A stretch of 64,000 bases of DNA from Arthrobacter sp. StoSoilB19. GTDB lineage: Bacteria; Actinomycetota; Actinomycetes; Actinomycetales; Micrococcaceae. The notes under the pieces are model-generated. The model was not told the origin of the DNA and searched no databases. It worked only from the letters and a program-made list of their open reading frames with translations. The stretch lies in the NCBI RefSeq assembly GCF_019977275.1, contig NZ_AP024650.1:1798001-1862000 (forward strand), written 5' to 3'. Shown in pieces: positions 12,787 through 44,462 of the stretch. The stretch's first letter is position 1; every line of letters starts with the position of its first letter. Made by a program: the position numbers and the translations under genes.

Positions 12787-13812
12787 GTGCCCGCCTACCT
12801 CCTGGATGTTGACACCGGGATCGACGACGCCCTGGCCCTTGCCTACCTGGCCGCCCTCCCGGACACGGAGATCGTGGCGGTCACGGCCTCTCCCGGCAAC
12901 GTGGACGCGGACCAGGTTGCCCGCAACACCCTGGCCCTGCTGGAACTGTGCGGCAGGTCCGGGGTCCAGGTGGCGGTTGGTGCCCGCCAGCCCCTGTCCA
13001 TCCCGCTGCTCACCACCCCTGAGACCCACGGACCGCAAGGGATCGGGTACGCCGTGCTGCCCGAACCCGCCGGGCGGCTCTGCGACCGGGACGCCGTGGA
13101 CCTCTGGATCGAACATGCCAGGGCCAGGCCAGGCGAGCTCACCGCGCTCATCACCGCACCGCTGACCAACTTCGCCCTGGCCCTGCGCAAGGAACCGGAA
13201 CTGCCCAACCTCCTGGCCAAGGCAGTAATCATGGGCGGCGCCTTCTACCACCAGGGCAACACCACCCCCACCGCCGAGTGGAACACGCACGTGGATCCGC
13301 ACGCCGCCAAGGAGGTCTACGCCGCGTACCGGGGATGGCCGCTGGAGAAACTCCCCATCGTCTGCTCCCTTGACACCACCGAACGCATTGAACTGCACCC
13401 GGCCCACGTCACGGCACTGGCCCGGGCCGCGGGTGCCGGCGTTCCCGAACTGCTGCTCCCGGAACAGCCGGAAGGGCGGCGCAGCACCTCCGACAACACC
13501 CTCATCAGGCACCTTTCAGATGCCCTGCGGTTCTACTTTGAATTCCACCGGCTCTACGACCAGGGATACCTGGCCCACGTCCACGACTTCTTTGCCGCAG
13601 GAGTCGCGGCAGGCACGCTCGAGTACACGGCGCGGACCGCCACCGTGGACGTCGAAACGGATTCGCCGCTCCTGGCGGGAACCACTGTGGCCGACTTCCG
13701 CGGGCTCTGGGGCACACCCCCAAACGCCAGGATTGTCGCCACCAACAACCCGGAGCAGGCGTTCCGCGAACTCGTGTCCGCCATCGGAAGCCTGGCCCGC
13801 CGGGTTGGCTGA
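12787..13812 (+). CDS. Nucleoside hydrolase (IunH-like)
   Basis: A 341-residue hydrolase that cleaves the N-glycosidic bond of nucleosides or nucleoside-like compounds. The Ca2+/ribose-binding motif is clear at the N-terminus (LLDVDTGIDDALALAYL), followed by VAVTASPGNVDADQVARNT and VIMGGAFYHQGN; WNTHVDPHAAKEVY carries the later Asp region. Start is GTG, 6 bases after the reductase stop. It directly precedes the leader and genes of an ECF importer. Two of its relatives (pyrimidine/purine hydrolases, and the queuosine hydrolase QueK of Clostridioides) work on imported or salvaged compounds. The pairing hints that the importer brings in a nucleoside-related substrate. That link is inference. Confidence 0.88.
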   Translation: MPAYLLDVDTGIDDALALAYLAALPDTEIVAVTASPGNVDADQVARNTLALLELCGRSGVQVAVGARQPLSIPLLTTPETHGPQGIGYAVLPEPAGRLCDRDAVDLWIEHARARPGELTALITAPLTNFALALRKEPELPNLLAKAVIMGGAFYHQGNTTPTAEWNTHVDPHAAKEVYAAYRGWPLEKLPIVCSLDTTERIELHPAHVTALARAAGAGVPELLLPEQPEGRRSTSDNTLIRHLSDALRFYFEFHRLYDQGYLAHVHDFFAAGVAAGTLEYTARTATVDVETDSPLLAGTTVADFRGLWGTPPNARIVATNNPEQAFRELVSAIGSLARRVG

Positions 13813-13877
13813 CAGGGCAGGGGCGGACCCGTCATGACCGGGCCACCCGGCACGGGACGCTGCCGGACGATGGCCGG

Positions 13878-13883
13878 TAGAAT
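13878..13883 (+). promoter_or_regulatory. -10 box for the ECF transporter leader
   Basis: TAGAAT lies 114 bases before the ecfS start and fits the -10 consensus; no convincing -35 box is seen. Transcription from about 13890 would produce a leader of roughly 108 nt containing the structured region at 13896-13975. This makes the ECF genes an independent unit from the nucleoside hydrolase gene. Confidence 0.5.
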
Positions 13884-13895
13884 GGGCCACGGACC

Positions 13896-13975
13896 GGCCC
13901 GGCGCAGTTGCCGCCGGCTGCTGCCGAGGTGACATAGGCAGCCACACTCCGGCCCGGCACTGCCGGGCCACTGCC
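13896..13975 (+). ncRNA. Candidate riboswitch-like leader of ECF transporter operon
   Basis: Three interlocking pairings are visible. Stem A: GCTGCC (13920-13925) with GGCAGC (13937-13942). Stem B: GGCCCGGC (13951-13958) with GCCGGGCC (13962-13969), an 8-bp perfect stem with an ACT loop, extended by GGCAG (13937-13941) with CTGCC (13971-13975). Stem A and the outer part of stem B share the same GGCAG strand and exclude each other. GGCCCGGC occurs a second time at 13896-13903, giving another partner for 13962-13969. The structure ends 7 nt before the AAAGGA ribosome-binding site. I recognise no known riboswitch class: no TPP, cobalamin or FMN boxes. The regulatory role is inferred. Confidence 0.45.
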
Positions 13976-13997
13976 TGCACCCAAAGGAACATTCCCC

Positions 13998-14885
13998 ATG
14001 TCATCGCCCTCTTTGACGCTTCCGTCCCAGGAACGCCCGGCGGCCCGCCGCCGGCTGCTGGAGATCCTCGGCGCCCTGGCCATCGCGGCCACCTATGTCT
14101 ACCTGGTGCTCAACCAGCCGGCAGACATCACCGGAGGTCCGGGCAGCGCATCGGCCCTGATCGCCCTCACCGGCTTCCTGGCAGGCGCAGTCCTGCTGAT
14201 CGTCGCCGTCCTGCCCACGCTGCCCGCGTCCACCCTGGTGCTCATTCCGGTGGCCCTGGTCCTGAACATCGTGCTCGGCCAGTTCGTTGGCAGCACCCTG
14301 GTTCCCTTCTACCTCGACGCCATCGGCACGGTGTTGATCGCGGTCCTGGCCGGCCCGGCCGCCGGTGCCGCCACCGGAGCGCTCAGCAGCATCGTCTGGT
14401 CCTTCTTCAACCCCACGGTGCTTCCGTTCGCAGCCGGCGCCGCGCTCATTGGCTGCCTCGCCGGGCTGGCAGCACGCTACGGCCTCTTCCGCCGCTTCTA
14501 CCTGGCTCCCGTGGCCGGTTTCGCCACCGGAATCATCGCCGGCGTGGTGTCCGCCCCGGTGGCCGCCTTCGTCTTCGGGGGCACCTCCGGCGTGGCCACG
14601 GGGGCCATCGTCAGCGCCTTCCGGGCCATGGGGGACACCCTCCTGGCCGCGATCACCAAGCAGGCACTGATCTCCGACCCTATGGACAAGGCCATCGTGT
14701 TCACAGTCGTGGCCATCCTGGTCTATGCGCTGCCCCGCAGGGTACGCCTGCAGTTCCCTTTCGTGCGGCGCCACCGGGTCCTGGCCGGCAACACCCCCGT
14801 GGAGGCCGCGGCTGACGCTCCCGCACAGGGGCCCGGGCACGGTCCCGCGCAGGGCACCTCCCCGGATTCTGCACGGAAGGGCTGA
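13998..14885 (+). CDS. ECF transporter S component, substrate unknown
   Basis: Substrate-binding membrane subunit of an energy-coupling factor importer, 295 residues. About seven to eight hydrophobic segments are visible, with the S-component-like run VPFYLDAIGTVLIAVLAGPA and AAGAATGALSSIVWSFFNP, and a C-terminal charged tail. ATG is preceded by AAAGGA. A T subunit and a fused ATPase follow immediately, so this is a dedicated (group I) ECF system. The nucleoside hydrolase upstream and the structured leader suggest a nucleoside, nucleobase or cofactor substrate. It does not carry signatures I would assign to RibU, ThiT, BioY, CbiM or QueT. Confidence 0.8.
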   Translation: MSSPSLTLPSQERPAARRRLLEILGALAIAATYVYLVLNQPADITGGPGSASALIALTGFLAGAVLLIVAVLPTLPASTLVLIPVALVLNIVLGQFVGSTLVPFYLDAIGTVLIAVLAGPAAGAATGALSSIVWSFFNPTVLPFAAGAALIGCLAGLAARYGLFRRFYLAPVAGFATGIIAGVVSAPVAAFVFGGTSGVATGAIVSAFRAMGDTLLAAITKQALISDPMDKAIVFTVVAILVYALPRRVRLQFPFVRRHRVLAGNTPVEAAADAPAQGPGHGPAQGTSPDSARKG

Positions 14886-14895
14886 CCGCAACGCT

Positions 14896-15684
14896 GTGAC
14901 GGCATCATCGGCAGGCAGGACGGCAGCGCCGGCCAGGCGGGAACGCCTTAACCCGCTGACGTCGCTGACGGCTGCCGCGGCCACGGCGGCCATTACGACG
15001 GCGGCCGGCACCTGGCCGTTGTCCCTCGCCGTGGTTGCCGCCTGCCTTGGCCTGTCCGTGGCGGGCGGCACGGCCCGGCGGGTGCTCCCGGCGGCTGCGG
15101 CAGTCCTGGTCCCGCTTGGCCTGTCGCTGCTGTGGCTGCACGGACTGTTCTTCCCGGAGGGCAGGACCGTCCTGGCAGAGTGGGGACCTGCCCGTATCAC
15201 CCAGGAGGGCCTGGCCTTCGCCGGGCAGCGGTTCCTGCAGCTGGCGGCCGTGGTCCTGGCCCTCCTGCTGTTCTCCTTCAGCGTCCGCGTGCCCGACCTC
15301 GTGGCGGCCTTGTCCGCCCGCGGCGTACAGGGCCGGTTCGCCTTCGTACTGGCGTCCACCCTGACCCTGCTGCCGGCCATCGCCGCCCGGGCGCAGCGTA
15401 TCCGGCAGGCCCAGGAATCACGCGGCCTGGTGGTCTCCCGCAGCCTGGTGTCCAGGTTGGGCGCGTTCCGGCTGCAGGCCGTTCCGCTGGTCCTCTCCCT
15501 GATCGATGATGCCGGCACCCGTGCTGCCGCCCTGGAAGCCCGGGGACTCAGCAACACCGGGCCGCGGACCAGCTACCGCGAGGTGGCTGATTCCGGCCGG
15601 CAGCGGACAGTACGCATCGTGCTGGTGCTCGCTGCCCTGGCGGCAGTGGTTCTCCGGGTAGTGCAGGCGGGCGCAGGTGGCTGA
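14896..15684 (+). CDS. ecfT: ECF transporter T component (EcfT)
   Basis: Transmembrane coupling subunit, 262 residues, linking the S component to the ATPases. The GTG at 14896 starts 10 bases after ecfS and gives a protein beginning with a short polar tail, then hydrophobic helices. The paired Ala-Arg-Gly-type coupling motifs are visible as SARGVQGRF and LEARGLSNTG, the latter matching the ARG signature of EcfT helices that contact the ATPases; the segment LTLLPAIAARAQRIRQAQESRG is typical too. Its last 8 bases overlap the start of the ATPase gene. Family assignment is firm from motif and context. Confidence 0.85.
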   Translation: MTASSAGRTAAPARRERLNPLTSLTAAAATAAITTAAGTWPLSLAVVAACLGLSVAGGTARRVLPAAAAVLVPLGLSLLWLHGLFFPEGRTVLAEWGPARITQEGLAFAGQRFLQLAAVVLALLLFSFSVRVPDLVAALSARGVQGRFAFVLASTLTLLPAIAARAQRIRQAQESRGLVVSRSLVSRLGAFRLQAVPLVLSLIDDAGTRAAALEARGLSNTGPRTSYREVADSGRQRTVRIVLVLAALAAVVLRVVQAGAGG

Positions 15685-17323
15685 GCCCATGGTGTCCCGC
15701 GGCCAACGCAACGCCGGTAATGCGGGCAATGCCAGCGATGCCAGTAATGCGGCCACGTCAGGCAAGCCGGTGCTGGCCGCCGGGATCCGGCACTTCACCT
15801 TCCACGACGGGCAGGTCCCGGCCCTGCAGGATGTCGCCATATCTCTTGCACCGGGCTCCTTCACGGCCATCCTGGGCGCCTCCGGAAGCGGGAAGTCCAC
15901 CCTGGGCCGCCTGCTGGCCGGGTGGCTGCCTCCGGGCGGCCACGGATCGCTGGCAGGGTTCCTTGAGTTGTCCGGCACGCGCCTTGAGTTTGCCGGCGGC
16001 GCGGGGGACCCGCGGATCGATCCCGCCCAGTGGGGCCGCCACGTGGGCTTTGTCCCCCAGGACCCCGGCGCCGTGCTGTCCACCGTCCGCGCCACGGTGG
16101 CGGAGGAACTCGCGTTTGGACTGGAGAATGCCGGTACGGGGCGTGGTGACATGCAGGCGGCGGTGCAGCGCACGGCCGGGCTGCTGGGACTTCAGGGCCT
16201 GCTGAACCAGGACCCCGGGACGCTTTCCGGTGGCCAGCTCCGCCGGCTGGCCATCGGCTGCGCCATCATCGCCGGACCTCCTGTGCTGGTCATGGACGAG
16301 CCCTTCGCCTCCCTGGACGCGGCAGGGGCGGAGGATCTTGCCACCCTGGTCCTGGACCTGCTGAAGCGGGGTACCGCCGTCGTAATCCTCAGCCAGGTGG
16401 TCGACCCCCTGCTCCTGGACGCAGACACATGGGTGGTACTCGCTGGGGGCATGGTCACGGCAGCGGGGCATCCCGCCGGTATGGGAGCGGGGCATGCCAA
16501 CGATGGCGGTGTCCCGCCAGTGCTGCCCCGGGCAATCAGGCGTCCTGCCGTGCCGGAGTCCGCGGTACCGCCAGGGCGGCCTGCAGCCCGGCAGGCGGGG
16601 CCGGCTGCCCTGCAGCTCCGCGGCGTCTCCTTCGCGTACCCGGACCCGCAGGTTCGCGGAAAAGAAAGCCGCAGAAGATGGGGCAGGGCGGCACCGGCGG
16701 GCGGCCTGAACACAGGCACCCCAGTGCTGCAGGACATCAGCCTGCAGGTCCACCCGGGGGAGATCGTGGCGGTCACCGGGCCCAACGGCGCCGGAAAATC
16801 GACGCTCCTGCGGCACTTCAACGGGCTGCTGCGACCCACCGCGGGAACTGTCCTGGTCAGCGGCAGCGACATCTCAAGCGACCCCGTCGGACGGACCGCT
16901 GCATCCGTGGGCCTGTTGTTCCAGCAGCCGCGCGACCAGCTGTTTGAACGGACCGTACTGCGGGAGGTCAGCTTCGGGCTGGAGCGATTGGTGGGCCGGG
17001 ACATGGTTGCCGGCCGCGCCGCCGCGGCGCTTCAGGCCGTCGGGCTGGCGGAGGCCGCCGACGAGCACCCCGCCGAGCTGCCGGCATCCGCCCAGCGCCT
17101 CCTGGCGCTGGCCACCGTCCTGGCGCGCAGGCCCGCCGTCCTGGCGCTGGACGAACCTACCGTGGCACTGGACGGGGACGGGCTGGCCCTGCTGGACGCC
17201 GCCGTCGGATCGGCAGCAGCGGCGGGCGCCGCCGTCGTGCTGGTCACCCATGACCTGGGCTACGCACGGACGGCGGCGCACCGGCTCCTGACGCTCGACG
17301 GCGGCCGGCTGACCCCGGCCTGA
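15677..17323 (+). CDS. ecfA: ECF transporter ATPase, fused A and A' domains
   Basis: A 548-residue cytosolic ATPase carrying two ABC domains in one chain. Domain 1: Walker A GASGSGKSTL (about 69-78), signature LSGGQLRRLAIG (about 183), Walker B VLVMDEPFASLD (about 203). Domain 2: Walker A GPNGAGKSTLL (about 368), Walker B VLALDEPTVALD (about 488), H-loop VLVTHD. The second signature is degenerate (ELPASAQRLLALA instead of LSGGQ). That implies one canonical and one altered ATP site, since signature 2 faces Walker A of domain 1. A linker of about 60 residues rich in Pro/Gly/Arg joins the halves. GTG start overlaps ecfT by 8 bases. Confidence 0.9.
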   Translation: MAEPMVSRGQRNAGNAGNASDASNAATSGKPVLAAGIRHFTFHDGQVPALQDVAISLAPGSFTAILGASGSGKSTLGRLLAGWLPPGGHGSLAGFLELSGTRLEFAGGAGDPRIDPAQWGRHVGFVPQDPGAVLSTVRATVAEELAFGLENAGTGRGDMQAAVQRTAGLLGLQGLLNQDPGTLSGGQLRRLAIGCAIIAGPPVLVMDEPFASLDAAGAEDLATLVLDLLKRGTAVVILSQVVDPLLLDADTWVVLAGGMVTAAGHPAGMGAGHANDGGVPPVLPRAIRRPAVPESAVPPGRPAARQAGPAALQLRGVSFAYPDPQVRGKESRRRWGRAAPAGGLNTGTPVLQDISLQVHPGEIVAVTGPNGAGKSTLLRHFNGLLRPTAGTVLVSGSDISSDPVGRTAASVGLLFQQPRDQLFERTVLREVSFGLERLVGRDMVAGRAAAALQAVGLAEAADEHPAELPASAQRLLALATVLARRPAVLALDEPTVALDGDGLALLDAAVGSAAAAGAAVVLVTHDLGYARTAAHRLLTLDGGRLTPA

Positions 17324-38328: not shown

Positions 38329-38400
38329 TGGGCGATACTGGGATCGAACCAGTGACCTCTTCCGTGTCAGGGAAGCGCGCTACCGCTGCGCCAATCGCCC
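38329..38400 (-). tRNA. tRNA-Val(GAC), copy 1
   Basis: Minus strand GGGCGATTGG...CCAGTATCGCCCA folds as a cloverleaf. The anticodon arm is CTTCC-CTGACAC-GGAAG with anticodon GAC, the T arm CTGGTTCGATCCCAG, and the acceptor GGGCGAT/ATCGCCC. The three bases after the discriminator are CCA, unlike the other tRNAs here. Identical in its 72 bases to the copy at 38560. Last gene of the five-tRNA array. Confidence 0.95.
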
Positions 38401-38432
38401 CGAACCGGAAGACCGGCTGTGGGATGTAAGAG

Positions 38433-38505
<73 letters not shown>

Positions 38506-38559
38506 GTGTGCAGGATGGACCGGTAAACCGGTGGTACTGCGGGCAAGTTGCCTTGCCAG

Positions 38560-38631
38560 TGGGCGATACTGGGATCGAACCAGTGACCTCTTCCGTGTCA
38601 GGGAAGCGCGCTACCGCTGCGCCAATCGCCC
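38560..38631 (-). tRNA. tRNA-Val(GAC), copy 2
   Basis: Same 72 bases as the copy at 38329, with anticodon GAC in CTTCC-CTGACAC-GGAAG. No CCA is encoded after the discriminator A. Third gene in transcription order. Confidence 0.95.
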
Positions 38632-38669
38632 ATTGCATCCGAAGGATCCGGAAACCATGGTTTTCACCG

Positions 38670-38740
38670 AGGTGGGTACGGGATTCGAACCCGTGTATAC
38701 GGCTTTGCAGGCCGCTGCCTCGCCTCTCGGCCAACCCACC
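38670..38740 (-). tRNA. tRNA-Cys(GCA)
   Basis: Minus strand GGTGGGTTGGCCGAGAGG...CCGTACCCACCT. Anticodon arm GCGGC-CTGCAAA-GCCGT gives anticodon GCA; the T arm is CGGGTTCGAATCCCG; the discriminator is U as expected for Cys. Single copy, second in the array. Confidence 0.95.
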
Positions 38741-38787
38741 GTGTTAGCGTCAATTCCGAAGAACCTTTGCTGTGACAGTGTCCTGCG

Positions 38788-38860
<73 letters not shown>

Positions 38861-39188
38861 ATTTTGGAGTGTTGATTCCCTGCCGTTTCCGGCATTTCCT
38901 CGCGTTCCAACGAGTAAAAACAATATCGGAGGTTCCGGGATTCTCCAAATCGCTCCGGCCCTGCGCCCATTGTGTGCCTCCAGATCGCTGCAACCACGCG
39001 GAGTTTGCGAGTTACAGGTGTGTAATTTCCGACGGCGGCAGGGGCGCCCGGGGGCGGCAGGCTGTGCTCCGCCGGGCTGCTTTCGAGGATTCCCGGCCAG
39101 GCAGAGGCTGCGGCGCGGTACCGGTCAGCGGGGTGTGTTGTTCGATTTTTGAAATAGGGCAGAGGTGGGCTAGCATTCAAATGCATCG
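38861..39188. other. Gene-free region between the divergent tRNA units
   Basis: These 328 bases hold the promoters of both tRNA units and no convincing gene. The part next to the minus-strand array is AT-richer (GATATTGTTTTTACTC on the minus strand near 38920-38935 could include a -10 box). The plus-strand promoter is at 39149-39176. The middle is GC-rich, without repeats or reading frames I would defend. Confidence 0.6.
39149..39176 (+). promoter_or_regulatory. Promoter of tRNA-Val(CAC)
   Basis: TTGAAA (39149-39154) and TAGCAT (39171-39176) with a 16-base spacer match the -35 and -10 consensus of housekeeping sigma factor. The predicted start is about 6 bases before the tRNA 5' end. Confidence 0.75.
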
Positions 39189-39260
39189 GGGCGATTGGCG
39201 CAGTGGTAGCGCGCTTCGTTCACACCGAAGAGGTCACTGGTTCGAACCCAGTATCGCCCA
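39189..39260 (+). tRNA. tRNA-Val(CAC)
   Basis: GGGCGATTGGCGCAGTGG...AGTATCGCCCA folds as a cloverleaf. Anticodon arm CTTCG-TTCACAC-CGAAG gives anticodon CAC. It shares the acceptor, D-arm and T-arm pattern with the tRNA-Val(GAC) genes across the divergent region but differs in the anticodon stem and at few other bases, suggesting a common origin. It has its own promoter and terminator. Confidence 0.95.
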
Positions 39261-44222: not shown

Positions 44223-44263
44223 CCGGGTGCCCCTGCCGGTTGTGGCACAATAACAACACACAT

Positions 44264-44408
44264 ACGTGCTCCGGGGTCGGTGTAAGTCCGAACCGGCGGT
44301 GACAGTCCGCGACCCGCGAGCCGGCTTCCTCCCAGGAGGATTCCGGCGGACGGTTGAACCGGTGGAATTCCGGTACCGACAGTTAAAGTCTGGATGAGAG
44401 AAGCACGT
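44264..44408 (+). ncRNA. FMN riboswitch (RFN element)
   Basis: The closing stem is ACGTGCT at the 5' end with AGCACGT at the 3' end. Conserved core segments are readable: CCGGGGTCGGTGTAAGTCC, GAACCGGCGGT, GACAGTCCGCGACCC, the variable hairpin, then ACCGACAGTTAAAGTCTGG followed by ATGAGAGAAGC. This is the classic RFN pattern that binds FMN and represses riboflavin genes. It lies about 170 bases before ribD and controls the rib operon. A possible -10 (CACAAT, 44246-44251) lies 12 bases upstream. Class recognition is certain; the mechanism (translation or termination) is not. Confidence 0.97.
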
Positions 44409-44462
44409 ACAGCTGTATCAGTGGGCCCGTTGGGTCCGCAACGTTCTGCTGTCGTATCCCCG

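Follow-up and report, generated by a model that had tools for sequence, protein, structure and literature searches.

The ecfS locus

The leader RNA described here precedes the ECF importer operon of Arthrobacter sp. StoSoilB19 and was analysed within a stretch of 64,000 nucleotides, termed the window (coordinates of the features are collected in Table 1). The product of the first gene, ecfS, is a CD3073-like S component that scores 90.5 bits against NF045596, which is under the equivalog cut-off of 180; a Pfam search of this product gave no match, and a distant PDB match to folate S components was obtained (E 4e-5). The T component, the true start of which lies inside the listed ORF, and the A component follow. 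The upstream neighbour of ecfS matches inosine/uridine/pyrimidine hydrolases. Directly past the stop codon of this nucleoside hydrolase gene there is a GC-rich inverted repeat, CCCGT...ACGGG (13828-13856), that has no U run and is a possible transcript end of the gene. A GC-rich stem with an adjoining U run, the signature of an intrinsic terminator, was not found in 13780-14020. The window also contains a bona fide FMN riboswitch (44262-44410, plus strand; RF00050, 96 bits) and a cluster of six tRNA genes at 38329-39260, five on the minus strand and one on the plus strand.

Table 1. Genes and leader elements at the ecfS locus (window positions)
Feature	Position	Strand	Basis
Nucleoside hydrolase gene, upstream neighbour, outside the proposed switch	12787..13812	+	PF01156, 268 bits
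Predicted -10 hexamer TAGAAT	13878..13883	+	Fixed spacing upstream of hairpin A in relatives
Extra 5′ hairpin segment, holds the second GGCCCGGC	13890..13919	+	Hairpin in predicted MFE
Stem A, 5′ arm GCUGCC (GCTGCC in DNA)	13920..13925	+	Covaries with 13937-13942
Loop of hairpin A, GAGGUGACAUA (GAGGTGACATA in DNA)	13926..13936	+	AGGUGACAU invariant
Putative helix S (sequestor), 5′ strand GGUGACAU (GGTGACAT in DNA), within loop A	13928..13935	+	Complementarity
Stem A, 3′ arm GGCAGC	13937..13942	+	Covaries with 5′ arm
Stem B hairpin GGCCCGGC/GCCGGGCC	13951..13969	+	Arms 13951-13958 with 13962-13969
CTGCC, alternative partner of GGCAG 13937-13941 (stem A 3′ arm)	13971..13975	+	Complementarity
Ribosome-binding site AAAGGAA	13983..13989	+	Sequence; AAGGA-type site kept in orthologues
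Putative helix S, 3′ strand AUGUCAUC (ATGTCATC in DNA), start codon and codons 2-3 of ecfS	13998..14005	+	Complementarity
ecfS, ECF transporter S component, CD3073-like	13998..14885	+	NF045596, 90.5 bits
ECF T component, CbiQ family (ORF)	14725..15684	+	PF02361, 66 bits from residue 73 on
ECF A component, two fused ATPase domains	15677..17323	+	PF00005, two stretches

From the position of the -10 hexamer, which takes the forms TAGAAT, TAGACT and TAGGAT across relatives, the ecfS transcript is predicted to start at about 13890; a consensus -35 was not found upstream of the predicted -10. Loop A follows the -10 at 18-19 nt in most genera; in the window's clade the spacing is about 48 nt. At 18-19 nt the first base of stem A would approximately coincide with the transcript start, thus in most genera hairpin A is predicted to lie at or near the 5′ end of the mRNA. 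The extra 5′ hairpin of ~30 nt is confined to the long-leader clades and is absent where the -10 sits 18-19 nt before the loop.

A conserved and covarying leader hairpin

The leader of the window folds better than its dinucleotide shuffles (z -2.49; 2 out of 200 shuffles were equally good), and the comparison with relatives assigns the conserved structure to hairpin A, with its stem of 6 bp. Approximately 140 distinct leaders from ~12 genera of one Micrococcales family (Arthrobacter, Pseudarthrobacter, Paenarthrobacter, Glutamicibacter and others) were compared. Compensatory changes, which the sequence-only reading of this DNA had named as the check on its proposal, were indeed found in stem A: in the larger set of leaders the covariation score was 0.544 against 0.214 for shuffled alignments, 88% of cells were paired and five of the six pairs were altered on both sides. 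The first set had given a similar picture (0.556 vs. 0.196±0.027 shuffled, with 0 out of 500 shuffles reaching the score), and the signal was lost when the partner arm was slid by 1-3 columns. Hairpin A is therefore held as established as a conserved, covarying RNA hairpin, and it constitutes a structured 5′ leader element with covariation, as is expected of a riboswitch.

While the arms vary, the loop does not. Every leader read in which the nucleoside hydrolase gene and ecfS are separated by intergenic space carries the hairpin, with a loop that consists of (R)AGGUGACAU and a terminal A, GA or UA. Loop A is 11-12 nt long and accommodates one extra base (ACAU-A, ACAU-GA, ACAU-UA), and the nine bases AGGUGACAU are the same in 42 out of 42 distinct sequences. 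Because the initial retrieval pattern and the model both included the loop motif, ascertainment slightly favours this invariance; in leaders found through the protein match alone the loop is equally invariant. Regulation through a leader peptide or mini-ORF was considered and rejected, because a mini-ORF GUG-ACA-UAG/UGA is interrupted in the UA-variant loops and the frames of mini-ORFs from AUN starts are not conserved.

Orthologues of ecfS were detected in 46 of 99 relatives and, within the family, in 139 of 295 genomes and 16 of 32 genera; the leaders of L227 (Glutamicibacter) and of the g52 genomes belong to the same orthologue set, and several g51/g52 genomes carry a second, distant S homologue. 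A covariance model trained on 30 distinct hairpins gave exactly one match in each of the 100 sources of orthologous leaders searched, 68 of which are named genome records, nearly all from Arthrobacter, Pseudarthrobacter or Paenarthrobacter. Hairpin A thus occurs in a single copy per genome, in front of the gene for the CD3073-type ECF S component, and it is absent where the nucleoside hydrolase gene and ecfS abut or where the homologue is distant (L045, L070-L078, L086). Run against the order (297 genomes) and the class (394 genomes), the model found no convincing site beyond the family or at another gene, and the non-family matches, where inspected, were weak or within coding sequence. The strongest of them (L087, 39 bits) is antisense within a coding region encoding AYVTSA, and the remaining ones inspected are weak and have an unrelated loop sequence. 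Among the genomes searched hairpin A is restricted to one Micrococcales family.

Loop A is complementary to the ecfS start codon

Loop A can pair with the start codon and codons 2-3 of ecfS, a complementarity that is missing from the sequence-only reading. The resulting helix S comprises 8 bp (-9.9 kcal/mol), and in the leader of the window the partition function gives a probability of about 0.94 for the loop:start pairing. The mean predicted probability that the start codon is unpaired was 0.14 in 143 distinct leaders, and it rose to 0.57 in the same leaders when the ten loop bases were permuted and to 0.58, compared with 0.14 in the free ensemble, when stem A was enforced; leader ends, start codons and transcript start are predicted ones in all these comparisons. 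The start codons of 97 other genes of the StoSoilB19 genome, drawn from 20 stretches of it, are unpaired at 0.49 on average. By genus, mean start accessibility was 0.00-0.25 in ten of twelve, and permuted loops equalled the native occlusion in 0-10% of cases in nine genera.

Lineages differ in the register of this pairing, yet the start codon stays covered: in g51/g52 (Glutamicibacter included) and the window's genus GGUGACAU faces AUGUCA(C/U)C, GACAUAGG faces CCUAUGUC in g37/g49 and CGAGGUGA faces UCACCUCG in g32. In L053, L055, L058 and other g51/g52 leaders the start AUGUCACC is fully complementary to the loop over 8 bp. Among the 40 congeneric orthologues with Ser at codon 2, 39 use the rare TCA, and this is the only conserved Ser column in which TCA dominates, the background of TCA being 6% inside genes and 5/30 at codon 2 (sampled genome, heuristic gene calls). 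With AUGUC held fixed, complementarity of the flanks was only modestly above that of flank shuffles (genus medians of p 0.07-0.64, only g32 at 0.004), and the genera do not count as independent cases here because common descent accounts for the shared loop and AUGUC core. Taken together, helix S is likely the partner of loop A, and the predicted ensembles point to the ecfS start codon as the conserved competitor of hairpin A.

In the leaders of g60 and in the single g34 leader the invariant loop is kept and the start is mostly unpaired (0.5-0.65), which implies that the loop must have an additional role. The g60 leaders (for example L230, L235 and L239) have a GUG or AUG start followed by AGY, with codon 3 nearly always the rare TCA; UCA(C/U)C is still able to meet GGUGA of the loop there and may amount to the start-codon helix in shifted form.

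Proposed switch and alternative explanations

Under nested-only folding stem A and helix S are mutually exclusive, and they are also geometrically compatible with an H-type pseudoknot (L1 = RA, L2 = A/GA/UA). It is proposed, with moderate confidence, that the leader hairpin is a translational switch. With hairpin A closed (ON) the ecfS start codon would be free, while pairing of the loop GGUGACAU with AUGUCAUC would block initiation (OFF), stem A being either displaced or locked in the H-type pseudoknot. The balance could be shifted by the substrate that is transported, by a metabolite related to it, by an RNA-binding factor or by ribosome competition. The formation of helix S in cells, its direction of action and the involvement of a signal are what we infer. 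The riboswitch-like layout suggested earlier stands insofar as there is a conserved leader RNA with exclusive pairings that touch initiation; the conserved partner, however, is probably the start codon and neither stem B nor the ribosome-binding site.

A rather unlikely alternative is that a trans-acting factor, an RNA-binding protein or a seed-matched small RNA, recognises the invariant loop and that the pairing with the start is secondary or incidental. Such a factor would account for the loop being invariant even in g60 and g34, where start pairing is mostly lacking, and 9-10 invariant loop bases on freely covarying arms look like a typical recognition site, the hairpin being 5′-terminal by prediction in most genera. 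However, this explanation leaves the loop-dependent occlusion of the start codon aside, no regulator gene is present in the immediate neighbourhood of the operon, and one copy per genome is odd for a general factor and fits a metabolite sensor or a dedicated site.

The sequence-only reading had proposed a switch between stem A and a stem B extended by GGCAG:CTGCC. All of the complementarities that it listed (stem A, stem B, GGCAG:CTGCC and a second GGCCCGGC copy, at 13896-13903) are present, the predicted ensemble of the window leader prefers extended stem B to stem A, and both CTGCC and the B hairpin are retained in the 11 closest species. The extension, however, is limited to these species and is missing in the rest of the same clade, and it may have arisen by chance. 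The GC-rich stem B hairpin itself, variable in sequence, is general in the window's clade, and the short-leader genera lack it. A switch of this kind would leave both the invariant loop and the stem A covariation seen elsewhere unexplained, and it is now very improbable; stem B is probably a lineage-specific spacer hairpin and not the switch partner.

Two further explanations are more improbable still. In most genera the element coincides with the predicted start of transcription, and its sequence (CCnAnGTGACnTnGG) is approximately palindromic, as that of a repressor-bound DNA operator would be, but its arms vary in sequence yet remain complementary, the loop is asymmetric and accepts a one-base insertion, and the distance from hairpin to promoter differs among leaders from 18 to 60 nt. 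Equally hard to sustain is a hairpin devoid of regulatory function, its loop kept by other constraints: 5′-terminal hairpins are able to stabilise mRNA, but an invariant loop is not needed for that, and the occlusion of the start codon and the conserved rare codon would be unexplained.

Possible signal

Returning to the translational switch, the narrower proposal that it represents a new Micrococcaceae riboswitch class, in which the aptamer consists entirely of a ~23-nt 5′-terminal hairpin whose ligand-binding loop, itself antisense to the start codon, senses the substrate of the CD3073-type importer, is put forward only tentatively and is doubtful. ECF importers and nucleoside hydrolases occur in queuosine salvage (PMC11130926). 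Queuosine was considered as the ligand and rejected, because tgt is present in nearly all members of the family, with or without the importer; the co-occurrence of tgt and the importer gives no support and queuosine is not linked to the importer. In the StoSoilB19 genome (L139, 5580-6341 and 8346-9641) an ORF near tgt resembles by eye a queuosine-precursor transporter (QPTR/YhhQ-like) and likely is one. Identification of what triggers the switch would hint at the cargo of the CD3073-type ECF importer that is encoded beside a nucleoside hydrolase.

Relation to known regulatory RNAs

The leader RNA is a well-supported, apparently uncatalogued addition to one actinobacterial family. In agreement with the earlier impression that it belongs to no recognisable class, Rfam 15 gave nothing for the leader at the gathering threshold and chance-level matches below it, no family was consistent across ten orthologous loci, and a literature search on the hairpin A motif found no report. 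Its layout is unusually compact, setting a hairpin loop against a start codon.

Genes for the S components of ECF vitamin importers are known to carry FMN/RFN, TPP and THF riboswitches in their leaders. Hairpin A shares with them the position, as a leader RNA preceding an ECF S-component gene, but differs entirely in sequence and size. Closer in architecture are preQ1-II and SAM-II, small H-type pseudoknot riboswitches that act on translation and typically precede importer or biosynthesis genes, and in which a short 5′ hairpin uses its loop to pair with a strand further downstream, around the site of initiation. The loop of hairpin A would be able to pair at the initiation region in the same manner, yet its partner is the start codon and not the Shine-Dalgarno sequence, and a conserved downstream aptamer core is missing.

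ANTAR-target RNAs likewise form hairpins in the leaders of transport genes in relatives of Arthrobacter and can mask initiation sites (PMC8164766). Assignment of hairpin A to this group was rejected, since ANTAR targets are dual stem-loops, required in tandem, with hexanucleotide loops that carry A1 and G4 (PMC8164766), whereas the leader of ecfS has a single conserved hairpin with a loop of 11-12 nt.
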